DNA of 39,141 nucleotides from Gammaproteobacteria bacterium (GTDB lineage: Bacteria > Pseudomonadota > Gammaproteobacteria > Arenicellales > JAANXG01). Position numbers and translations under genes: made by a program. The stretch is from the NCBI GenBank assembly GCA_024639325.1, contig JAHEIO010000023.1, positions 9,249-48,389 on the forward strand, given 5' to 3'. How positions within the stretch are numbered: the first letter of the stretch is position 1; the number at the start of each line of letters is the position of its first letter. Below the pieces are notes generated by a model, which worked only from the letters and a program-made list of their open reading frames with translations, was not told the origin of the DNA and searched no databases. Shown piece after piece: positions 16,436-27,763 of the stretch.

Positions 16436-17422
16436 TCAAGCGGGTACTCTAACACAACCGCTTTGGCACATAGCCAGGCAAATTCTCTCGATGCCTGACC
16501 AAACGCTTCCGGTTTCACGGCCTTTCAGCACCCTGTCCAATGCAGCCACATCCTGGAGCATCGATGCCCAACCCTCCCCGCCGCAGCGACCCAGGGCCTT
16601 GTTAACCAGCGGGACCTGCCTGGACCATACCCGGAACGATTTGAATAGCTGCGCCCTGGGTTGTCCGGCTTCGATGGCCTGGCAAAGGCGATACAAGGTA
16701 CGAACCTGATTGGCCAGCGCCCAGACAATGATTGCCGGTTCGGCACCCTCGCGCTTCAAACCGGTCAGGCTGCGCATCGCCTTGACGGCATCCCCCGCGA
16801 GGCAATAGTCAACCAGCGTAAATACGCTGAATCGTGCATTATCGGTAATACTGCCGGCGACGTCATCGAAGCGCACCGTGCCGCGTTCCGGGCCCAGAAG
16901 TTTCAGTTTATCGATTTCCTGCGCGGTCGCCAGTAAATTTCCTTCCGTATAGTGCGACAGCAAAACCGCCGCATCATGCTCCACGGTAAAGCCCCGCGTC
17001 CGGGCCCTAGCGACGATCCAAGCCGGCAACTTGGACGCGGGCACCCGTTTCTTTTCGATCACATGCCCCGTTTTCTCGATGGTTTTATACCACTTGATCT
17101 TGCGGGTTCTGGCGTCCAGCCTGCCGCTAACGATGAGAAGTGCGGTGTCGGGAGGCGGCCGTTCACAAAAGCGGGACAGCGCCCGGGTACCCTGCTCTCC
17201 GGGTTTGCCGGTCGGCATGCGCAAATCGATCAGGCGCCGAACGGAGAAAAGCGACATGCTCCGAGCCGCCTCATCCAACCGGCCCCAATCGAATCCCGGC
17301 TCGGCGGTCATGACCAGACGCTCTTCGAAGCCCTCGCTCAGGGCGCCAGCGCGGAGTTCGTCCGCCGTTTCTTCCACAAGCAGCGGCTCATCTCCAAAAA
17401 TCAGCGTTATCCTATTGTGCAT
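16436..17422 (-). CDS. holA: DNA polymerase III delta subunit
   Basis: HolA is the clamp-loader subunit that opens the beta sliding clamp. The 328-residue protein starts MHNRITLIFGDEPLLVEETADELR. Family members usually have about 15 more residues before the GDEPLL motif, and a TGA four codons upstream of the ATG rules out a longer start in this frame. It is therefore N-terminally short, but the clamp-loader body and the C-terminal collar (SVWSGIERICLAM) are present. EGNLLATAQEIDKLKLL and LKREGAEPAIIVWALANQVR match the family. It lies between lptE (90-bp gap) and proA (13-bp gap). Confidence 0.94.
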   Translation of the reverse strand: MHNRITLIFGDEPLLVEETADELRAGALSEGFEERLVMTAEPGFDWGRLDEAARSMSLFSVRRLIDLRMPTGKPGEQGTRALSRFCERPPPDTALLIVSGRLDARTRKIKWYKTIEKTGHVIEKKRVPASKLPAWIVARARTRGFTVEHDAAVLLSHYTEGNLLATAQEIDKLKLLGPERGTVRFDDVAGSITDNARFSVFTLVDYCLAGDAVKAMRSLTGLKREGAEPAIIVWALANQVRTLYRLCQAIEAGQPRAQLFKSFRVWSRQVPLVNKALGRCGGEGWASMLQDVAALDRVLKGRETGSVWSGIERICLAMCQSGCVRVPA

Positions 17423-17512
17423 ACCGAAACGAAGTCACAATTGAGTCCGGCGCCAGTTGCCGGGTCCGGATCCCCTGAAGCGAAGCACGAGGTCCCCGCG
17501 TGTTAGAACGGG

Positions 17513-18046
17513 TCAGGTCCTGGTGACGCGGCCGATGGACACCGCGGGACCGGCAGGTGCGAGTGAGGCGGTGACCGTAGCGATTTGCCGAAGGATCTGC
17601 TGGGTCAAATCCGTTAACATATCCTGACGCAGGCTTTCCTCTTCGATTTCAGCCTGCAGTATGAGGTCCGGATCGAAGTTGAAGTCACGCCTGGTGACGA
17701 GGGCGGACTGCCTGAGGCTTTCACCCTCGGCAGATGTCAGCGTAAAACGAGCTCTGTAACGCAGGATATAACCGGTAACTTTGCCGCGGTCGTCGATCGT
17801 AAGCACCTCTCTTTCGTACCTGACGTTCTTGAGATCCAACAGCGCGAGCGCGTCCGACGGGCTCTCCACAACGGTGGCGCCGCTGAAGCTGAGCGCTTCC
17901 ACAAGCTTGGTGCGCAGCTCTCTGTCGTCGCTCTGAACACTGATTGTTTTGATGCTGTCCGGGATGGGAAGCTGTCCGCGCAGGTGAAAACCACACGCGG
18001 TCAGGGACGCACACACGACGAAAGTCAATAGTAAACGCATAGGCAT
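17513..18046 (-). CDS. lptE: LPS-assembly lipoprotein LptE
   Basis: LptE plugs the LptD barrel and helps insert lipopolysaccharide into the outer membrane. The 177-residue protein has a lipoprotein signal with the lipobox LTAC (lipidated Cys at residue 18) and then GFHLRGQLPIPDSIKTISV, typical of the family. The C-terminal tail SLRQDMLTDLTQQILRQIATV also fits. ATG codons at 18046 and 18040 are both possible starts. The gene follows leuS by 74 bp, the conserved leuS-lptE-holA order, and a candidate promoter lies in that gap. Confidence 0.95.
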   Translation of the reverse strand: MPMRLLLTFVVCASLTACGFHLRGQLPIPDSIKTISVQSDDRELRTKLVEALSFSGATVVESPSDALALLDLKNVRYEREVLTIDDRGKVTGYILRYRARFTLTSAEGESLRQSALVTRRDFNFDPDLILQAEIEEESLRQDMLTDLTQQILRQIATVTASLAPAGPAVSIGRVTRT

Positions 18047-18086
18047 AGTGTATCGTTACATTTCATCAATTGAAACCGCGCAAATG

Positions 18087-18140
18087 CAGGCTCGGACAGG
18101 TTCCCTGTTTGCATTATATGTCATCCCACAACGATGTTGA
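18087..18140 (-). promoter_or_regulatory. Candidate promoter and leader hairpin for lptE
   Basis: On the minus strand TCAACA (18140-18135) and a perfect TATAAT (18118-18113) are 16 bp apart; the -35 lies inside the end of leuS. The 5' leader then contains a hairpin: a perfect 5-bp stem at 18096-18100 and 18104-18108 (ACAGG/CCTGT with a 3-nt loop), and outer complementary arms AATGCA/TGCATT. This would let lptE and the genes after it be transcribed apart from leuS. Confidence 0.4.
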
Positions 18141-20586
18141 TCAAGCGCTTCGGCACGACTATGCACTTATTGATCCGGGCGTCACCGACATGCTGTGCTA
18201 CTTTACGATCGGCAAGCGCGGCCTCCCTGATCGAGTCTTCACCGGCATCGACTGGAACTTGAATGCGGCCGCGCAGTTTACCGTTTACCTGAACCACCAT
18301 TTGCACTACCTCGGTCCGAAGCGCCTTCTCGTCGACGTCGGGCCACGAAGCATCCAGCAGATCAGATCCATCAGTTATTTCCGTCCACAGAACGTGCATT
18401 ATGTGGGGGACCACGGGCGCCAGCACCTTGGTCAGCACTGTGAGCGCCTCCCTCAAAACCGAGGCACCGGCATCGCCGAACTTTTCCCAATCGAGTCTTT
18501 CCACCGCGTTGGTGAGCTCCATACAGGCGGCAATTACCGTGTTGTAACGAGTGCGCTCGTAGTCGGCATTGACCCTGGAAAGCATTCCATGCAGCAGTGT
18601 GCGGAACTCCTTCAACTCCGTGTTCAGATCATTTCCCGAAACCGGCGCGGCATCGCGAATTAACTCAGAACGCTTCCGGAACAGTGCCCAAAGCCGGCGC
18701 AGAAACCGGTGTGCGCCCGCCACGGCATCGTCATTCCACTCCAGCGATTGGTCCGGCGGAGAGGCGAACATAACGAACAGACGGACCGTATCAGCGCCGT
18801 ATCGATCAATCATCGACTGGGGATCTACGGTGTTGCCCTTCGATTTCGACATCTTGGCCCCATCCTTCAATACCATGCCCTGGGTAAGCAATCTGGTGAA
18901 AGGCTCATCGGAATCGACCAGCCCTTCATCCCGCATCAGCTTGTGGAAGAAGCGGGCGTAAAGAAGGTGCAGCACGGCGTGCTCTATTCCGCCGATATAC
19001 TGATCCACCGGCAACCAGTAATTGGCGCGTTCATCAAGCATGGCGCTGTCGTTATCGGGGCAGCAGAATCTCGCAAAATACCAGGATGACTCGAAAAAAG
19101 TATCGAAGGTATCGGTTTCCCTTGTAGCGGGACGGTCGGTGCCCGGGACCCGGGTTCTGAGGAACTCGGGGTCATCCTTGATCGGGGATTTGACGCCCTG
19201 GAATTCGACATTCTCCGGCAACTCTACCGGCAGGTCCTCGGCAGGCACGGGATAGACATTTTCCGCCTCGTCGTAGACCACGGGTATCGGACATCCCCAG
19301 TAACGCTGCCTCGAGACACCCCAGTCGCGGATGCGAAAATTAGTTCTGCGTTGACCGACGCCCTCGGTTTCCAGGTAGTCCGCCACGGCGTCGAAGGCCC
19401 TTGCATAGTCCATGCCATCGAAGCGCCCGGAATTGCACGTAATCCCGTATTCAACATACGCGCCGTCCGCGATGTCGACATCAGGGCCTTCCGACGGCCT
19501 GATCACCTGCCTGATCTCGATACCGTATTGCCTGGCAAACTCCCAGTCGCGCTGGTCATGCCCCGGCACGCACATGATTGCCCCGGTGCCGTATCCCATC
19601 AGCACGAAGTTGGCCGCCCATATCTTTATCTTTTCGCCGTTGACGGGGTGGATTGCCTCGATGCCGGTGGGCACGCCTTTTTTCTCGAGTGTCTCGATTG
19701 AAGCTTCCGCCGCTTTGGATTTTTTGCACTCGGCGATGAACGCCGCGAGTTCCGGATTCGATCTGGCGGCTTCCTGGGCCAGCGGGTGCTCCGCCGCCAC
19801 CGCGGCGTAGGTGATGCCCATGATGGTGTCTGGCCGTGTCGTGTACACGCTTATTCGCTCGTCGCTGCCGTCGATGGCAAACGAAAATTCGATTCCCCGG
19901 GATTTACCGATCCAGTTGCGCTGCATGGTCTTGACCGCATCGGGCCAGCCCTCGAGATCGTCCAGGCTGCTAAGCAGTTCATCGGCATACTCGGTGATTT
20001 TAAGGAACCACTGCGGGATTTCACGCCGTTCGACAAGCGCCCCGGAACGCCACCCGCGACCCTCGCTGTCCACCTGCTCATTGGCCAGCACCGTCTGCTC
20101 GACCGGGTCCCAGTTCACCACCGCCATTTTCTTGTAGGCCAGACCCTTGTTTACCAGGGTGGTGAAAAACCACTGCTCCCATTTGTAGTACTCAGGCTTG
20201 CAGGTGGCGAATTCCCTCGACCAGTCGTAGCCGAAGCCAAGCCGCTTCAATTGCGCCCGCATGGCATCGATGTTTTCGTAGGTCCATTTCGCCGGCGGCA
20301 CCTGGTTCTGGATGGCGGCGTTTTCCGCGGGAAGACCGAACGCGTCCCATCCCATGGGCTGCAGGACGTTCTTGCCCTGCATTCGCTGGTACCTGGAGAG
20401 GACGTCACCGATGGTGTAGTTGCGGACGTGGCCGATATGCAGTTTCCCCGACGGATAGGGAAACATCGACAGGCAGTAGAACTTTTCGCGAGCGGGGTCC
20501 TCTGTCACCCTGAAACTCTGGTTGTCTTCCCAGTACTGCTGTACCTTCAGTTCTATCTCGTCGGGTCTGTAGCGGTCATCTGTCAT
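18121..20586 (-). CDS. leuS: Leucyl-tRNA synthetase
   Basis: LeuRS charges tRNA(Leu) and edits mischarged tRNA. The 821-residue length is a little under the usual 860. The class I HIGH motif is HIGH at residues 50-53 ([15 protein letters not shown]) and KMSKS is at 578-582. The CP1 editing domain is present, with [22 protein letters not shown]. The start [19 protein letters not shown] aligns with known LeuRS N-termini, so the ATG at 20586 is firm. It is the first gene of the long minus-strand run and is divergent from the P1 gene across 61 bp. Confidence 0.98.
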
Positions 20587-20595
20587 AGGCGGCGT

Positions 20596-20623
20596 ATTGT
20601 AGCGGCTTGTGGCTGACCATCAA
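20596..20623 (-). promoter_or_regulatory. Candidate leuS promoter
   Basis: Read on the minus strand, TTGATG (20623-20618) and TACAAT (20601-20596) are separated by 16 bp. Transcription would start near 20589, only about 3 nt before the leuS ATG, so the mRNA would be essentially leaderless. No Shine-Dalgarno sequence lies before the ATG. Confidence 0.45.
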
Positions 20624-20628
20624 GCCGC
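20602..20628. promoter_or_regulatory. Operator-like inverted repeat in the leuS/P1 divergent promoter region
   Basis: GCGGCTTG (20602-20609) and CAAGCCGC (20621-20628) form a perfect 8-bp inverted repeat with an 11-bp centre. It covers the space between the leuS -10 and -35 boxes and overlaps the candidate -35 of the plus-strand gene. A bound protein could affect both genes. The half-site spacing suits a dimer, but no regulator can be named. Confidence 0.4.
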
Positions 20629-20641
20629 GATGGGCTATAGT
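20613..20641 (+). promoter_or_regulatory. Candidate promoter for the P1 gene
   Basis: CTGACC (20613-20618) and TATAGT (20636-20641) are 17 bp apart on the plus strand. The start of transcription would fall at about the ATG at 20648, which again suggests a leaderless mRNA. The -35 overlaps the inverted repeat at 20602-20628. Confidence 0.35.
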
Positions 20642-20647
20642 TCCACT

Positions 20648-21118
20648 ATGCTTAGATCAATCATTTGCATTTTGTTACTCACCCTGGCTATTGCCGGTCC
20701 CGCAAGCGGATTGACTCTTTATAAGTGCGTACTGCTGGACGGCAGCGGCGTCATCTACCAGGACCAGGAACCCAGCGATGCCGAATGCAAGGTCGAGCAG
20801 AAGGACCTCGATCCGGACGCCAATGTGATTCCGGCCGCCGAATTCACCGGACAGCAGCAGCAGGCACCCTCGGGCAGCTCGACTTCCGAGCGGTCCGGCG
20901 CACCTGATGAGCGTGAAGACGAGGACGTGCTCATCACCGGCGAGGAGGACGAGCTGGGCGTGGGTGATCCCGGCAACACCCCGGTTAAAGAACCGCCGAC
21001 GGCGAATACCGGCACAACGGCTAGGACTGCCGGCACCTCCGGAACGGGGACAGCCGCTGCCGGAGGCGCGGTGGCCCCTCCGGCACCGCTGCCGCCGGGG
21101 GGTATTCTCGGACCGTGA
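20648..21118 (+). CDS. Secreted protein P1, DUF4124-like N-terminus with Gly/Ala/Thr-rich tail
   Basis: This is a 156-residue protein of unknown function. Residues 1-21 are a clear signal peptide. The mature N-terminus, LTLYKCVLLDGSGVIYQDQEP, resembles the DUF4124 pattern (a short beta hairpin of the YxWxDxxGxxxYSDxPP type) and contains two Cys residues (C27 and C47) that could form a disulfide. The rest is low complexity: Gln/Ser-rich, then acidic (DEREDEDVLITGEEDELG), then Gly/Ala/Thr-rich, ending APLPPGGILGP. An in-frame upstream start would add 13 residues before the signal peptide and is less likely. P2 at 21913 has the same design and a similar last motif. Confidence 0.75.
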   Translation: MLRSIICILLLTLAIAGPASGLTLYKCVLLDGSGVIYQDQEPSDAECKVEQKDLDPDANVIPAAEFTGQQQQAPSGSSTSERSGAPDEREDEDVLITGEEDELGVGDPGNTPVKEPPTANTGTTARTAGTSGTGTAAAGGAVAPPAPLPPGGILGP

Positions 21119-21151
21119 TTGCCGCGGGCGGCCATGGCCGCAAGGATTGAA

Positions 21152-21823
21152 ATGATCGAGCTGTATACCTCACCCACGCCAAACGGATACAAGGTTTCGA
21201 TCATGCTGGAGGAGTGCGGTCTGCCGTACCGATTCACGCACATCGAGCTGTCGGCGAAGGAACAAAAAGAAAACTGGTTCCTAGCGCTCAACCCCAATGG
21301 GCGCATCCCGGTAATCGTCGACAGTGACCAAGACGATTTCGTTGTCTTCGAATCCGGGGCCATTCTGGTATATCTGGCTGACAAGTCGGGGGCATTTCTT
21401 CCGACGCAGCCGAAGTCCCGGTCGCGCGTGCTGCAGTGGCTCATGCTGCAGATGGGGGGGCTCGGACCGATGCAGGGGCAAGCCCATGTCTTCTACCGCT
21501 ATGCTTCTGAGAAGATCCGCTTTGCCATCGACAGGTACCAGTCCGAAACTAGGCGTCTGTATGAGGTACTGAATCGCCAGCTCGGTGACAACGAGTTCCT
21601 TGCCGGCGACCTGTCGATAGCCGATTTCGCGACTTTTCCGTGGGTTCGACGGCACGGTTGGGCGGGTGTCGAGATCGATGATCTCCCGCATTTGACTCGC
21701 TGGGTCCAGTCTCTCGCGAGGCGCCCGGGCGTTCAAAAAGGGCTCGATGTGCCGGTGCCCCAGACGACCCTCAATCAGCGCAGTTCGAACCAAAAAGTCG
21801 AGGAGGTACGCCGTATAATCTGA
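21152..21823 (+). CDS. Glutathione S-transferase, YfcG-like
   Basis: This is a 223-residue GST family protein. The start [21 protein letters not shown] matches the E. coli YfcG N-terminus closely, as do [32 protein letters not shown] and [17 protein letters not shown]. YfcG is a nu-class GST with disulfide-bond reductase activity using glutathione, and the Thr/Asn pair of PTPNG is the active-site region. The ATG at 21152 has an AAGGA ribosome-binding site 5 nt upstream. A TTG and another ATG upstream would only add non-conserved residues. It follows P1 by 33 bp and precedes P2, so P1 and GST may share a transcript. Confidence 0.93.
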
Positions 21824-21885
21824 TCAGGAAAGGTGCGTCAAAGCGTCCCGTGATATCCCTTTTAGTGAATGTTCGCCGACGAGGT

Positions 21886-21891
21886 TATAAT
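21886..21891 (+). promoter_or_regulatory. Candidate -10 box for the P2 gene
   Basis: A perfect TATAAT lies 21 bp before the P2 ATG at 21913, and transcription would start near 21898. The -35 region is poor (TTAGTG at 18-bp spacing), so this is a tentative call. If real, P2 can be expressed independently of P1 and GST. Confidence 0.35.
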
Positions 21892-21912
21892 AGCATCCGA
21901 GGTTTGGGAATC

Positions 21913-22815
21913 ATGAACAGAGTAGCGTCTTACCTGATTACTTTCTGCATCATTGCCGCCACACCGGCGATAGCCGCTGAGACGATATACATTTGTGAGC
22001 AAGACGGCGGGGGTGTGTTTTACAAAAACGAACCCTTCGAACCCGGCGAATGCGATAAGGTCGCCGAGAAAAGCGTCGACACCGAAGTCAATTTGATATT
22101 CGACACGCAAGCAATTTCCGCTGCGGACGTTCCCGGCGATAACCTGGGACGAGCCAGCGGGGCCCCCTCGATCACAACCAACCCATTGATAATGGAGCCC
22201 GACTTCGAAGCGGGCACCAGGGCTACGCAGGCCGCGGAAGCTGCCGGTCAAAGTGCCAAGGCCGCCGAGGCCAGCGCTGAGGCCGCTGCTGAACTCGCGG
22301 CAAATCCATACGACAAATCCCTTGAAGACGCCGCGCAGGCCGCCGCCGAAGCCTCTGAACCTTTTGCCGAAGCTGCCAAAGACGCCGCAGTCGAAGCGGC
22401 CAAATCCGCCAAATCCGCCAGCAGCTCCCAGGTGACGACCAACACCAACCGCGCGGCCCGGGACACCAATGCCGCCGCCAGCGAGACCGAAAGCGCCGCC
22501 GGCGCCACGAAAACAGCGGTCAAACTGTCCAGGGAGAATGCCCCGCAGGAACAGATCAAACAAGCGGCCGACGACGCCGCCAGGTCATCCAGCCGTGCTT
22601 CGGAAGCCGCCGATGTGGCGAACGACGCCGCCCAGGGTGCCGTCCCACCAGGCGCCGGGCTGGCGCGCGCCTCTGAGCCCGCGCCCGCTGCGGATACCGC
22701 CGTCGGAGCCGTCATCGCCGCCCCCGGCATAGCCGGCGCTGGCGGAACCCTGGGGTCCGCCGCCCGCGTTGCCGCTCCCGCTCCGCTGCCGTCGGCGCCC
22801 GTCATCGGACCATAA
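21913..22815 (+). CDS. Secreted protein P2, DUF4124-like N-terminus with long alanine-rich helix region
   Basis: This is a 300-residue protein of unknown function. It has a signal peptide (residues 1-22). The mature N-terminus, TIYICEQDGGGVFYKNEPFEPGEC, follows the same plan as P1, with Cys at 28 and 47. After a linker, residues of about 105-250 are strongly Ala-rich with Glu, Lys, Ser and Asp at intervals (for example AAEAAGQSAKAAEASAEAAA), which predicts long helices or a coiled coil. The C-terminus is Ala/Pro/Gly-rich and ends APLPSAPVIGP, similar to P1. A GGGAA stretch lies shortly before the ATG. The frame is open 21 codons further upstream, but the signal peptide marks this start. Confidence 0.75.
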   Translation: MNRVASYLITFCIIAATPAIAAETIYICEQDGGGVFYKNEPFEPGECDKVAEKSVDTEVNLIFDTQAISAADVPGDNLGRASGAPSITTNPLIMEPDFEAGTRATQAAEAAGQSAKAAEASAEAAAELAANPYDKSLEDAAQAAAEASEPFAEAAKDAAVEAAKSAKSASSSQVTTNTNRAARDTNAAASETESAAGATKTAVKLSRENAPQEQIKQAADDAARSSSRASEAADVANDAAQGAVPPGAGLARASEPAPAADTAVGAVIAAPGIAGAGGTLGSAARVAAPAPLPSAPVIGP

Positions 22816-22830
22816 CCGATATCCTGCATC

Positions 22831-22954
22831 TAACCCGCATTTTTCACCAGGCGGCTATAGAATCTCGTGAAGCATGGCAAACATCGAGGTCTATGGATTT
22901 GTCCAAAAAACGGTGTGTCTTGGAAAAGCCTATCCTGGTGAGAAATGCGGGCTA
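22831..22954. mobile_element. MITE-like element with 21-bp inverted ends
   Basis: The sequence at 22831-22851 and the reverse complement of 22934-22954 match at 19 of 21 positions (core CCCGCATTT then TCACCAGG). The element is 124 bp long, holds no transposase, and is bounded by TA on each side, which could be a TA target duplication of the IS630/Tc1 type. It sits between the convergent P2 and TPR lipoprotein genes. Its right end supplies the TAG stop of the lipoprotein gene. The end sequence looks to me like a recurrent gammaproteobacterial IS end, but no family is assigned. Confidence 0.6.
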
Positions 22955-23383
22955 AGGCCGGCCGTACTGGTTTTGTATCACTTTCCGGCACGATGAGAGC
23001 GACGTGGTTGTGCATCGTGATTGGGCGGCATTGACGAGGCGTCTATTGCTCGTTTTCAGTTCATTGTCCCGCGTCAAAGCGTTCGACTTGGTGGCAAACT
23101 GGATCGCCTGATCGAAATTTCCCTGATCCAGGTGCACGCGGGCCAATTCGTGCCACAAGCGCGCATTGCCGGGCTCGATGCGCAGGGCTCTTTCCAGTAT
23201 TACCGCCGCCTGATCGAACTGTTTGCGATCGCGGAAATGCCGGGCGCTGTCTACCCAGTTCACCACCGCCGCCTGATCGGATATTGGCTGGCGCTCCGGC
23301 CTGGAAGCCGTGGTCGTGCAGGATGCCAGGACGACCAGCGTAACCAAAGCAAGTCCGAGACCCGACAATATCTTGATTCTCAT
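22952..23383 (-). CDS. TPR-containing lipoprotein downstream of mrcB
   Basis: This is a 143-residue predicted lipoprotein. The signal peptide ends in the lipobox LASC with the lipidated Cys at residue 22. Two tetratricopeptide-like repeats follow (FDQAAVILERALRIEPGNARLWHELARVHLDQGNFDQAIQF in two segments), so it likely binds protein partners in the envelope. Linkage to PBP1b (43-bp gap, same strand) suggests a role near cell-wall synthesis. The last 20 residues (SRCTTTSLSSCRKVIQNQYGRP region) are Cys/Ser-rich and unlike a TPR end. The stop codon is provided by the inverted end of the MITE-like element, so the tail may be altered by insertion or by a frameshift. Confidence 0.8.
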   Translation of the reverse strand: MRIKILSGLGLALVTLVVLASCTTTASRPERQPISDQAAVVNWVDSARHFRDRKQFDQAAVILERALRIEPGNARLWHELARVHLDQGNFDQAIQFATKSNALTRDNELKTSNRRLVNAAQSRCTTTSLSSCRKVIQNQYGRP

Positions 23384-23426
23384 TTGTCACCAGGTGCACG
23401 TTAACTGTTTTGTGGATATTCGCACT

Positions 23427-25811
23427 CTATTTCCTGTTCGTGTCGAACAGCTTTTCGAGCCAGCTTTGCTTTTTCGCGGACTTATCACGCCGCTTCTTGA
23501 CGCTGGCACAGGACGCGTATCGATCGGGCATGGTGCCGGGCACGAACGGCAGAGTTTGTGCGCCTGAGCAACCGGTCGCCAACTGACCGTACTGATCGAT
23601 CTGCACATACTCGATCGACGCGGGCGCCGGCAGGTCGACCGGCTGGATGTGGACTTCTTTCATGATATCCCCCCAGATTTGCATCGCACCCGACGCGCCG
23701 GTCAGCCCCGTCGGTTTGTTATCGTCTCTACCCACCCACACCACGGCAAGGTAGTTGCCGCCGTAGCCCGCAAACCAGCTGTCCCGGTAGCCGTTGGTCG
23801 TTCCAGTCTTCCCCGCCAGCTTCAGATTCGGCGGGAAGCGCGTGTTCAGCGACCTGGCGGTGCCTTTTGCCACTACAGATTGCAGCCCGGCATTGAGGAC
23901 CGTCATTTGTTCGCCCTCGATGACCTGCTCCAGCGACAGCGGATATCGAGCCAGCGGCTGCATGTCCTGGTTCAGCACCGACCGGGTAGTGCGCAGTGGA
24001 ATGAGAAAGCCGCCGCTGGCGAAAGCCAGGTACATCTGAGTCATTTCCAGAGGCGTCAGGTTGACTGCTCCGAGGGAAAAAGACGGGTAGCCACTTACCT
24101 CCCTGTTCAACCCAAGCCTGCGCAGCAGTCGTACGACTCGGTCGATACCGATCTCCAGACCCAGTCTTGCGGTTGCTATGTTGTAGGAGTAACTCAGGGC
24201 ATCGATCAATCGAACGGAGCCGTGCGACGTGCCATCGTAGTTTTGTGGTTTCCACACGGGTGCACCGGCTTGTTCGACAACAAGCGGACCGTCGTCCAGC
24301 ATGCTGGCCAGACTGTAACCGCGTTCCAGCGCGGCGAGAAACACCAGCGGCTTTATCAAGGACCCGACGGGTCTTTCCGCTTCCAGAGCCCGATTGAAAC
24401 CGGCGAATCGCGGCGCTCTGCCCCCTGCAAGCGCTACGACTTCACCGTTGTCGGTGCGCACCACAAGCACCGCAGACTGCAGGGAGCCCTCCGGCAGATT
24501 TTTCTGTTTCTCGATGGCGCTCAGTCTTTGGCCCACCGACTTCTCGACTACGCCCTGAATCCGGGGATCGAGGGCGGTAATAATGTGCAGGCCCGCCTTG
24601 CGCAGGCCATCTTCCTGATAATCGCGGCGCAGCTGGAGCCGAACGAAGTCGAGGTAGGCCGGATGCTCCGTGGACGAATACCTCCCTTTTCTCGTCACGC
24701 CGAGTGGCGCTTTCCTGGCTTCGGCTGCGGCAGTGCTGTCGACATAACCCAACTCGACCATATTGCCAAGAACAAGATTACGCCGCGTCTTCGCGCGTTC
24801 AGGCGATCGGAACGGATTGTAGTAGGATGCGCCCTTTACCAGAGCGGTCAACAGCGCCAGCTCCGACAGGTTGAGTTCGTCCAGGGGGCGCGCGAAGTAG
24901 AACAGACTGGCCAGGCCGAAGCCGTGGATGGCGCGATTGCCCGATTGGCCCAGATAGACTTCATTGATGTATGCCTCCAGTATCTCGTCCTTTTCATAGT
25001 GCAGCTCCAGCAGCAGGGCCATCAGCATTTCCGTGAGTTTTCTCTGGATGGTTCTCTCCTGGGTAAGAAAAAAATTCTTCGCGAGCTGCTGCGTCAGGGT
25101 GCTGCCGCCCTGCACCACCCCGCCGGCACTGAGGTTCGCCCACATGGCGCGCGCGAGCCCTCGCGGATCGATCCCGAAATGCTTGTAGAACGCGCGATCC
25201 TCAACCGCCAGGAGCGCATGGACCAGGTCTTGCGGAACGTCTTCCAGACGAACCAGCGCGCGGTCTTCATGATGTCCAGGAGAAATGCTGCCGAATAATC
25301 TGGGCTCCAATCGGGCGCTGTCCGACGGATTACCGTGAGCATCGTGAAGCGCCGTAACGACATTGCCCTCTATCCGCAAATCGATGATCCGCGGCTCGCT
25401 TGATCCGTCCCAGAATGTGAATCCCCTGAGATAGATCCGAACACGGTACTTCGACTGCGCAAAGGTCCCGGGTGAATCCGGATGCGCCACCGCGCGGTAG
25501 CCCAACTGCTTGAGTTCACCAACAAGTTCCGGTCTGGTGATCACCATTCCGGGAAAGATATCCAGAGGCCGGCTGTATATGTGGGAAGGGATAGCCCATC
25601 GGCTTCCCTCCAACTTGTCGCGCACCGTAATGTCGAGGTAAACGGTATAGCCTGCCAGCGCGAAAAAAGCGAGCACCGCAAACAGCCGCATCAACACGCG
25701 AACCGAAGAAGCTTGCCTGGATCTGGTCCCGGATCCCGGCTTCGTCCTGGTCTTCTTTTTGCTCGATGTTTTACGCGGTCGTCTTTTGTTCGCTGGCATG
25801 CGATTTGACAT
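23427..25811 (-). CDS. mrcB: Penicillin-binding protein 1B (bifunctional transglycosylase/transpeptidase)
   Basis: PBP1b polymerises and cross-links peptidoglycan. With the start at 25811 it has 794 residues: a basic cytoplasmic tail, a membrane anchor (about residues 38-58), a UB2H-like domain with IPSHIYSRPLDIFPGM, a GT51 domain with the catalytic Glu E204 in VEDRAFYKHFG and GGSTLTQQLAKN, and a transpeptidase domain with SLIK (S484-K487), SYN (542-544) and KTG (668-670). All active-site motifs are intact. The ATG at 25811 lies 6 bp after the DUF2007 stop; an ATG at 25799 is an alternative. A longer upstream frame overlaps DUF2007 and is unlikely. The C-terminus is basic. Confidence 0.96.
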   Translation of the reverse strand: MSNRMPANKRRPRKTSSKKKTRTKPGSGTRSRQASSVRVLMRLFAVLAFFALAGYTVYLDITVRDKLEGSRWAIPSHIYSRPLDIFPGMVITRPELVGELKQLGYRAVAHPDSPGTFAQSKYRVRIYLRGFTFWDGSSEPRIIDLRIEGNVVTALHDAHGNPSDSARLEPRLFGSISPGHHEDRALVRLEDVPQDLVHALLAVEDRAFYKHFGIDPRGLARAMWANLSAGGVVQGGSTLTQQLAKNFFLTQERTIQRKLTEMLMALLLELHYEKDEILEAYINEVYLGQSGNRAIHGFGLASLFYFARPLDELNLSELALLTALVKGASYYNPFRSPERAKTRRNLVLGNMVELGYVDSTAAAEARKAPLGVTRKGRYSSTEHPAYLDFVRLQLRRDYQEDGLRKAGLHIITALDPRIQGVVEKSVGQRLSAIEKQKNLPEGSLQSAVLVVRTDNGEVVALAGGRAPRFAGFNRALEAERPVGSLIKPLVFLAALERGYSLASMLDDGPLVVEQAGAPVWKPQNYDGTSHGSVRLIDALSYSYNIATARLGLEIGIDRVVRLLRRLGLNREVSGYPSFSLGAVNLTPLEMTQMYLAFASGGFLIPLRTTRSVLNQDMQPLARYPLSLEQVIEGEQMTVLNAGLQSVVAKGTARSLNTRFPPNLKLAGKTGTTNGYRDSWFAGYGGNYLAVVWVGRDDNKPTGLTGASGAMQIWGDIMKEVHIQPVDLPAPASIEYVQIDQYGQLATGCSGAQTLPFVPGTMPDRYASCASVKKRRDKSAKKQSWLEKLFDTNRK

Positions 25812-25816
25812 GCGAA

Positions 25817-26146
25817 TTAGGTGTTGTCGGGATTGTCGCTGCGGAACTCCGCCGCGCAATGCCAGCAGATTTCGAATGTCGCCGGATTGTTTTCGCCACA
25901 TTCGGAACATTGCCGGTTGCGTTCAGTCCGGGACCCGTTTTCGAACTCCGATACGATCCGGCGTGCACGCCGTTCGTCCTCCGGGTTGTCAATCCAGACT
26001 TCCGGGTAGACGTGGGTGAAAGGGAGTTCCCCGACGCCCCCCTGAGCGTTTTCATTGAACACCAACGCGCGGATACCCTGTTCATGCAGTTGATGCAACA
26101 GCAAGTGGGCCTCTGGCAGGCTCGCTGCGGAGTATATACGTTTCAT
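25817..26146 (-). CDS. DUF2007 protein with C-terminal zinc ribbon
   Basis: This is a 109-residue protein. The DUF2007 part begins MKRIYSAASLPEAHLLLHQL and has the conserved VYPEVWI stretch. The C-terminus carries a zinc ribbon with CxxC at C80/C83 and C94/C97 (CSECGENNPATFEICWHC). DUF2007 is described as a putative signalling domain related to PII, but its function is not established. The ATG at 26146 matches the family start; one at 26173 would add nine residues. It is upstream of mrcB by 5 bp and is likely cotranscribed with it. Confidence 0.88.
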   Translation of the reverse strand: MKRIYSAASLPEAHLLLHQLHEQGIRALVFNENAQGGVGELPFTHVYPEVWIDNPEDERRARRIVSEFENGSRTERNRQCSECGENNPATFEICWHCAAEFRSDNPDNT

Positions 26147-26225
26147 CGCTAGGTAGCTTCGTCCGACCGCCATTCAACACGGTTCACCTGAACTATGCTA
26201 GGCTGTGAAAATGAACGCAATAGTT

Positions 26226-26241
26226 GGCGGCTTCGGCCGCC
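26226..26241 (+). promoter_or_regulatory. UUCG tetraloop hairpin before the AAA ATPase start
   Basis: GGCGGC-TTCG-GCCGCC is a perfect 6-bp all-GC stem closing a C(UUCG)G tetraloop, one of the most stable RNA hairpins. It ends 16 nt before the ATG at 26258, and no Shine-Dalgarno site is seen between. It could sit in the 5' leader and affect translation or mRNA stability. No T-run follows, so it is not a typical terminator. Confidence 0.45.
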
Positions 26242-26257
26242 GTAATCCCACCGCGTC

Positions 26258-27763
26258 ATGAACGTTCTGGACCAACGGATCGAAAAAACGCTAAAGGCAA
26301 GGCACCCGATACTGTATCTGCACTCACCTGAAGAGGACCGGGTAATGCGGTCCCTGCAGAGAATCGCGGGTGAGGACGCGAAGATTCGGTGCTGGACCTG
26401 TACCCATGGGCTCGACGACAGCGAGGACCCGGCGACCACCGATCCAGCCGTGGCGCTGGAGGAGCTGATACGCGACCCGCGAGCGGGCTTTTTCGTGTTC
26501 AAGGACCTGACCCCTTTCATGGACGACCCCGCTCTGATTCGCGGGCTGCGCGACGCCTATTACACCCTGCGCTCCGTCAAGGGTGCGCACCTTTTCATCC
26601 TCTCGCCCGTGTTCTCCCTGCCTGAATCGCTGGCGAAGAATATCTACATCGTAGATATACCCCCGCCCTCGACCGACGACCTGGTTGATTTGACCAAGAA
26701 TATCGTCTCGCAGTACACGCAAAAGAACATTCCGGACAGCCTGCTTCGTGACATGGCGCTTTCCCTGAAAGGAATTACCATTTATGAGGCGGAGCATGTG
26801 CTGCATGCCGTGCTGAGCGGGCAGAAGCTCAGCCGGACCTCTTTGCTGGACGAGATCCGCGATACCAAGAAAACCATCGCGACCGGAGCGGGTTATCTTG
26901 AGTATGTTCCGAGCGACAAGAGACTCGATCACGTCGGGGGCCTGTCTTATCTTAAGACCTGGATAACAGAGCGGTCGACCATCTTCAATCAGCAGTCCAT
27001 AGACGAAGGACTGCCCGTTCCCAGGGGCATCCTGATCATGGGGGTAAGCGGCTGCGGCAAGAGTCTGTGCGCCAAGGTCGTGGCAAATATTTGGAACGTT
27101 CCGCTGTTCAGACTGGACATGAACCTGGTTTTCTCGAACATCTACGGCAATCCGGAGGCGGCATTTCACAAAGCCCTTCGCGCTATCGAGTCTCTGGCGC
27201 CCGCGGTGCTTTGGATCGACGAGATCGAAAACGGCCTGGGTTTCACCGAGAGAACCAACACCATCCAGTCGCACATCTTTTCCGCGTTTTTGACGTGGAT
27301 GCAGGAGAAACCACCGCTAGTATTCGTCGCCGCGACGGCAAACCGAATCGAGATCCTGCCCGCCGAACTTATCCGCAAGGGCCGGTTCGACCAGGTGTTC
27401 TTCGTCGATCTGCCCGACGATGAAGAACGGCAGGAGCTGTTCCGGATACATCTCGAGAGCAACGGTGCCGATCCGGAAAAATTCAAAATGAAATCATTGA
27501 TGCTGGAGACCAAGGGTTGGAACGGTGCGGAAATCGAGCAGGTCGTGATCGCCGCGCGAATTCGCGCTCACAAGGAAAATCGGGCATTCAATACCCGCGA
27601 CATAGCGGATCTCGCTCGAATGATGGTACCTTTGTCCAGAACCATGAAGGAACAAATCAAGATCCTAAAAGACTGGGCTTGGGACCGCGCAACACCCGCA
27701 TCGAAGGGGCGGGGTACAGACTTTTCCATACTCGAAGCGGAGAAGACAAGCAGCGCCTCCTGA
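26258..27763 (+). CDS. Ycf46-like AAA ATPase
   Basis: This is a 501-residue AAA-family ATPase. The first 215 residues are a degenerate AAA-like domain without a P-loop (starting with LKARHPILYLHSPEEDRV and FVFKDLTPFM), as in Ycf46 proteins. The C-terminal AAA module has Walker A GVSGCGKS (262-269), Walker B VLWIDEIE (around 317-324), sensor region VAATANRIEILP and arginine-finger region IRKGRFDQVFFVDLP. Ycf46 was first known from plastid and cyanobacterial genomes, where it affects CO2 use in photosynthesis. Its role in non-photosynthetic bacteria is unknown. It stands alone on the plus strand and has no clear operon partner. Good confidence on the family, none on the target. Confidence 0.9.
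   Translation: MNVLDQRIEKTLKARHPILYLHSPEEDRVMRSLQRIAGEDAKIRCWTCTHGLDDSEDPATTDPAVALEELIRDPRAGFFVFKDLTPFMDDPALIRGLRDAYYTLRSVKGAHLFILSPVFSLPESLAKNIYIVDIPPPSTDDLVDLTKNIVSQYTQKNIPDSLLRDMALSLKGITIYEAEHVLHAVLSGQKLSRTSLLDEIRDTKKTIATGAGYLEYVPSDKRLDHVGGLSYLKTWITERSTIFNQQSIDEGLPVPRGILIMGVSGCGKSLCAKVVANIWNVPLFRLDMNLVFSNIYGNPEAAFHKALRAIESLAPAVLWIDEIENGLGFTERTNTIQSHIFSAFLTWMQEKPPLVFVAATANRIEILPAELIRKGRFDQVFFVDLPDDEERQELFRIHLESNGADPEKFKMKSLMLETKGWNGAEIEQVVIAARIRAHKENRAFNTRDIADLARMMVPLSRTMKEQIKILKDWAWDRATPASKGRGTDFSILEAEKTSSAS

Follow-up and report, generated by a model that had tools for sequence, protein, structure and literature searches.

Two diverged DUF4124-like proteins, predicted to be exported, on either side of a glutathione transferase gene in an Arenicellales genome

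Proteins with a DUF4124 (PF13511) match have been reported from 948 bacterial species, and the gonococcal protein TfpC (Neisseria gonorrhoeae), a type IV pilus assembly factor carrying such a match, sets a precedent for an envelope role (PMC7593972). Here, we describe two genes, called P1 and P2, that lie on either side of a glutathione transferase (GST) gene in a 39,141-nucleotide (nt) stretch of DNA from a gammaproteobacterium of the Arenicellales (assembly GCA_024639325.1, contig JAHEIO010000023.1, positions 9,249 to 48,389, forward strand), the whole of which is referred to as the window. We compared the window's own genome (G000) with the other genomes of its family (G001–G012, 13 in all), and we use the term slot for the position between the GST gene and the divergent neighbour that, from its sequence, we presume to be leuS; P1 is the slot gene of G000. 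Our best explanation, put forward tentatively and with nearly even weight for and against, is that P1 and P2 are paralogous, exported envelope proteins of a head-spacer-tail design, belonging to a diverged DUF4124-related branch, and that the GST is a separate cytosolic enzyme.

Both proteins start with a stretch that reads by eye as a signal peptide, and both N-termini were modelled as a helix. P1 carries the motifs LYKC, GSGVIY and EP and a second cysteine (Cys27 and Cys47, 20 apart), and P2 the motifs IYIC, GGGVFY and EP and a second cysteine (Cys28 and Cys47, 19 apart). A first-pass annotation, made from the DNA letters, had described this shared signal peptide, the DUF4124-like start motifs, the cysteine spacing and the similar ends, and had placed both genes; description and coordinates were correct. 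Searching the P2 head against the whole of its own genome retrieved two places, P2 itself and P1 (44% identity, E 0.0014), and a profile comparison (hhalign) of 8 P1-type with 4 P2-type heads gave a probability of 96.9% and an E-value of 1.9e-10, the hhalign E-values of all head comparisons being for one pair each. The proposal that the two are diverged paralogues is upheld by both results; the lack of profile similarity between the N-terminal regions, named at first pass as grounds for abandoning it, did not arise. P1 also grouped with the P2-type sequences in a tree of 15 N-termini (support 97/95). On sequence grounds, P1 and P2 are diverged paralogues with homologous N-terminal heads, and both would be exported.

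The same heads point to DUF4124. P1-type heads compared with 14 canonical DUF4124 heads from these genomes (hhalign) gave 97.3% probability and an E-value of 2.2e-11 over 29 columns; for P2-type heads the values were 45.7% and 2e-4. The earlier label of DUF4124-like heads thus holds by profile for P1 and more weakly for P2, which is tied to DUF4124 because its head is linked through that of P1, its own profile match being weak; Pfam itself finds neither. A PF13511 search of the window's own genome gave four other places over the cut-off, with P1 and P2 not among them. Both proteins would accordingly be termed DUF4124-like, as apparently diverged, clade-specific relatives that are not filed as members. 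By sequence, no solved relative of the head was found at E ≤1, and a structural search with the head gave one weak row among 95 aligned chains (Z 2.4). A P2-type profile run against PDB sequences returned four rows (best E 0.25), which we took as chance.

In the AlphaFold model of P1, the head forms three strands (residues 22–29, 35–38 and 47–54), with a mean predicted local distance difference test score (pLDDT) of 73–86 over residues 21–60; in P2, head strands at residues 23–29, 35–38 and 49–55 were modelled at low pLDDT. The middles of the two proteins differ. That of P1 (residues 71–138), disordered in a model with a mean pLDDT of 59, contains 13 Asp/Glu versus 4 Lys/Arg and 29 Gly/Ala/Thr among its 68 residues, in agreement with its earlier description as acidic and Gly/Ala/Thr-rich. 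The middle of P2 had been described as one long Ala-rich helix; the alanine content stood (52 of 153 residues), and the single helix gave way to four predicted ones (residues 91–130, 135–168, 172–207 and 212–243), with 132 residues at a pLDDT of at least 90 in a model built from a 4-sequence alignment, followed by a disordered tail. The relative in G002 holds this P2-like bundle twice (score 241 versus a shuffle mean of 96, z 14.9). Two hairpin repeats within P2 were considered and set aside as not significant (z 2.2, and z 2.6 for the relative in G004). The bundle drew structural matches with a best Z of 13.6 (2.6 Å over 154 residues) and a best Foldseek E-value of 0.025; a family assignment was dropped, the matches being generic and near the tool's usual level for helical bundles.

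The last 12 residues of P1 and P2 agree at 7 places, which was matched in 0.13% of 200,000 shuffles of the last 30 residues of each, in a test chosen after the ends had been seen. Both proteins end in Gly-Pro, and they are the only 2 of 243 open reading frames (ORFs) to do so (0 of the other 241) in a 279-kb sample of their genome, made up of the window and a further 240 kb from two contigs and counted as greedy ORFs of at least 90 residues, not curated genes, with shorter and overlapping ORFs dropped. Across the family, Gly-Pro ends 6 of the 13 slot genes (G000–G005), comprising all five from genera g1 and g2 and one of the remaining eight, as well as the two P2-type genes located elsewhere. 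The shared C-terminus proposed at first pass is therefore neither absent from homologues, an outcome held there to count against it, nor general, since the remaining 7 slot genes lack the Gly-Pro end. Three of 25 other complete DUF4124 proteins of the family (L002, L119 and L125) also end in Gly-Pro, in a count that excludes L122, cut by a contig end, and the genes beside leuS (L076, L093, L100 and L123). One of the three, encoded at L119 1200–1574 (G002:C11) at a distance from leuS, has the C-terminus NPLPSIPPVTGP, which resembles that of P2; proteins similar to it in G000 (L003) and G003 (L107) end differently.

A role of the Gly-Pro terminus as a tag for sorting or docking, recognised either by an envelope machine of its own or, head to tail, by DUF4124-like heads, would account for an end kept while the middle changed entirely, for the three further family proteins against none of the 241 sampled ORFs, and for a P1 end modelled at higher pLDDT (70 and 60) than the P1 middle (37–48). 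We nevertheless regard it as unlikely: more than half of the slot genes do without this end, the three cases amount to about two events (L002 and L125 being apparent orthologues in sister species), neither P1 nor P2 matched NCBIfam sorting-signal models at E ≤5, a similar APLPPSGALG stretch is internal in the G002 relative, and the P2 end has low pLDDT. That the Pro-rich end is a genuine envelope tag recognised by DUF4124-like heads or by a clade-specific machine seems less probable still; if true, modular head-spacer-tail proteins with exchangeable spacers would link up or be sorted in the periplasm.

P2-type genes were found in different surroundings: behind the GST gene in G000, inside the slot, in P1's place, in G002 and G003, and on another contig in G004, a genome of a different genus, where the 18 kb examined contained no GST. 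In the closest relative, G001, P1 is 97% identical, and the alignment with the window stops at 21976, the end of the P2 signal peptide, to resume at 22957, leaving only a signal-peptide remnant of P2; no further P2-type gene was found in this genome, which is rated 91% complete. A different exported-looking gene (L031 2857–3441), with what we take by eye to be a carboxypeptidase-regulatory-like stretch, occupies P2's place in G001; window positions 22957–23031 match the bases around its start, and the rest of that gene is unmatched in the window. The simplest reading of these sequences is that G000 and G001 each lost the gene that the other kept. P2 would be no fixed partner of P1 or of the GST, because of the remnant in G001, the G004 copy without a nearby GST and the P2-type genes in P1's place.

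The enzyme encoded between P1 and P2 matched both GST_N and GST_C of Pfam. Its closest solved structure is 4eci (292 bits), YfcG scoring 170–173 bits (3gx0, 170), and against the YfcG equivalog model of NCBIfam (PRK13972) it scored 174.6 bits, under the cut-off of 332; it appears to be of the YfcG kind but not YfcG itself. By eye, no export signal was seen in the GST, which is therefore expected in the cytosol, whereas P1 and P2 would be exported.

In 13 of 13 family genomes, leuS and the GST gene flank a DUF4124-like gene, so that linkage restricted to this genome, which the first-pass annotation had held would speak against a pairing, was not what we found. The gap between slot gene and GST gene, taken in 12 of the 13 genomes (all but G006), is 33 nt for P1, which fits an operon; it spans 0–72 nt in seven (G000, G001, G005, G008, G009, G010 and G012), measures 37 nt in G002 and 28 nt in G003 by ORF coordinates, and reaches 174 nt in G011, 190 nt in G007 and 796 nt in G004. 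In 29 other genomes of the order, the region up to about 1.5 kb from where leuS starts was inspected: a DUF4124-like gene is present there in 2 (G017 and G023), the GST in none. Four long loci from other family genomes (L033, L035, L036 and L037) keep both genes upstream of leuS and, downstream, the tetratricopeptide repeat (TPR) gene, the penicillin-binding protein (PBP) gene and one further gene. The GST linkage is thus real, yet not specific, being part of a larger conserved block. Since G017 and G023 carry a slot-like gene by leuS without a GST, the enzyme looks like a later arrival beside the DUF4124-like gene, with loss elsewhere as the alternative. In a class-wide search, 16 of 369 genomes matched at E ≤1e-7 (best outside the own genome, 2.3e-11); at 13 loci of 13 matching genomes outside the order, the window's leuS, GST, TPR and PBP had no match at E ≤1e-4. 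Of the stretches fitting a pattern, 8 of 25 on genome contigs and 0 of 55 on viral contigs were confirmed.

The short gap bears on a further proposal, in which P1 is a SecM-like translation-arrest leader: ribosomes would stall on its Pro-rich end, at the Gly-Pro before the stop, and expression of the GST would be adjusted in this way. Being small and close to the following gene, with a conserved end and an apparent export signal, P1 resembles part of what a published search asked for, and that study also reports one arrest peptide upstream of a gene of another kind than sec or yidC (PMC10987492). At this locus P1 is followed by neither sec nor yidC, no GST gene comes after P2, and none of the 9 RAPP-like motifs sought was present in any of 15 slot and P2-type proteins; we find the proposal barely credible.

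The slot genes of G000–G003 (4 of 13) and the two P2-type genes lying elsewhere encode two cysteines beyond residue 20, and 9 of 13 slot genes have none beyond that residue, G006 being counted from a 93-residue piece. The first-pass annotation had proposed a redox-sensitive cysteine pair served by the GST, such that the enzyme, or the glutathione pool it uses, would control a thiol switch in P1 and P2. The disulfide-oxidoreductase kind of the GST, the two cysteines outside the signal peptide in each protein and the operon-like gap all suit this proposal, but cysteine presence and GST linkage do not coincide: the nine cysteine-free slot genes are GST-linked, and the stretch examined in G004, with its cysteine-bearing P2-type gene, contains no GST. 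With an enzyme in which no export signal is seen and a linkage that reflects general synteny, we rejected the redox switch as the main explanation and rate it very unlikely. In the P1 model, one cysteine sits on the first strand and the other at the start of the third; the periplasm is oxidising, and a structural disulfide joining these two strands fits and is what the two cysteines would most likely form. Separately, many family genomes encode a protein in which a DUF4124 head is joined to a segment with a CDAC motif (L001 1465–2112 in G000:C281, also L029, L030 and others); the segment looks glutaredoxin-like by eye, and this protein, unlike P1 and P2, looks like a real redox protein.

Several results weigh against P1 and P2 as head-spacer-tail envelope proteins. 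Pfam returned no family for either at E ≤1, PF13511 reached E ≤0.001 in one of 13 aligned relatives (best 2e-9) and E ≤1 in seven, and the P2-type match to DUF4124 is weak alone. The N-terminal tree has long branches and rests on 99 columns, the middle and tail of P1 are poorly modelled, Pro/Gly-rich ends are simple sequence, and 7 of 13 slot genes do not end in Gly-Pro. Between G000 and G001, P1 differs by 12 base changes (7 synonymous and 5 non-synonymous), giving a ratio of non-synonymous to synonymous change (pN/pS) of 0.25, compared with 0.17 for the GST and 0.08 for leuS, and is thus less constrained than either; its tail carries no change of either type and is hence uninformative. This lower constraint, the mere remnant of P2 in G001, where another gene follows, and the free divergence of the spacers would equally suit dispensable DUF4124-like proteins with drifting low-complexity tails and no specific role. 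We consider that unlikely, although deserving of serious thought, given a slot gene kept in all 13 genomes, the pN/pS of P1 itself, and a P2 that retains 54% identity to a relative in another genus.

We favour the envelope proteins described at the outset. Building on the head homology, tail likeness, synteny, bundle duplication and P2 remnant that the computations establish, the signal peptides would export P1 and P2 to the envelope, where the three-strand beta head would dock on a partner. Between head and tail would lie a fast-changing spacer, an acidic disordered linker in P1 and, in P2, an Ala-rich four-helix bundle, doubled in one relative, that may act as a scaffold or rigid spacer. The Pro-rich Gly-Pro tail would make a second contact, and the GST would be a separate cytosolic enzyme encoded in the same gene block. 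Most DUF4124 proteins have no assigned function; the clade provides a natural experiment, in which head and tail are kept while the spacer is swapped or doubled, cysteines occur in one branch only and one gene is lost among close relatives; it narrows tests to tail binding and the disulfide, and cautions that a GST neighbourhood alone is poor ground for a redox link.

Table 1 Features of the locus in window coordinates; gene coordinates of P1 and P2 include the stop codon.
Feature	Position	Strand	Basis or remark
leuS (presumed name)	18121..20586	−	Divergent neighbour; marks the slot
P1, putatively exported 156-residue DUF4124-like protein	20648..21118 (ATG 20648, stop 21116–21118)	+	ORF
P1 head, predicted three-strand beta domain, residues ~22–66	20711..20845	+	Alignments, AlphaFold strands, hhalign
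P1 Cys27	20726–20728	+	
P1 Cys47	20786–20788	+	
P1 C-terminal APLPPGGILGP	21083..21115	+	Sequence; Gly-Pro end common to part of the relatives
GST, YfcG/YghU kind	21152..21823	+	Pfam GST_N and GST_C, PDB matches, NCBIfam
P2, putatively exported 300-residue paralogue of P1	21913..22815 (ATG 21913, stop 22813–22815)	+	ORF; relatives in G002, G003 and G004; N-terminal homology to P1
P2 head, DUF4124-like domain, residues ~22–60, with Cys28 and Cys47	21976..22092	+	Alignment; modelled strands, low pLDDT
P2 middle, predicted Ala-rich four-helix bundle, residues 91–243	22183..22641	+	AlphaFold
P2 C-terminal APLPSAPVIGP	22780..22812	+	Sequence
TPR lipoprotein-like gene, convergent with P2	22952..23383	−	Pfam TPR
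PBP1b (mrcB)	23427..25910	−	NCBIfam TIGR02071, 854 bits (cut-off 718)

Beyond P2, the TPR lipoprotein-like gene recurs close to the slot in 9 of the 11 other family loci that were tested, the exceptions (L032 and L038) reaching contig ends. Adjoining PBP1b, it recalls LpoP, the PBP1B activator in Pseudomonas (PMC7267771); no specific LpoP match was seen for it. These two adjoining genes make cell-wall synthesis a candidate setting for P1 and P2, and no more. Ahead of P1, within window 20613–20648, a −10-like TATAGT ends 6 nt before the ATG, as it does in G001, so that the P1 mRNA may be leaderless. TAGAAT occurs 20–34 nt upstream of the start used in 9 of 10 other slot genes inspected (G006 outside the count), with TAAAAT in G002. 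An Rfam scan of window 17000–26500 gave nothing at gathering scores.

Compared with described systems, P1 resembles arrest peptides of the SecM/RAPP type in its apparent export signal, its Pro-containing end and its place upstream of another gene, and differs from them in lacking a RAPP-like motif (15 proteins checked) and in the gene that follows. The GST resembles YfcG/YghU-type glutathione transferases over residues 1 to ~200 of 223, with a score below the equivalog cut-off separating it from YfcG. DUF4124 proteins share with P1 and P2 the predicted export, a short head of the form Y-K-x-x-D-x-x-G-x-x-x-Y at the N-terminus and C-terminal parts that vary. P1 and P2 differ in falling below Pfam detection, and the heads of the slot group are longer and end in a DPDANVVP-like sequence. 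TfpC, which has a DUF4124 match, is like them in its envelope placement and in its extended Pro-rich and helical parts, likened here by description only; its helical domain is C-terminal, whereas that of P2 lies in the middle (PMC7593972). Real but modest, the sound observation is that P1 and P2 represent a diverged, modular variant of DUF4124-type proteins.
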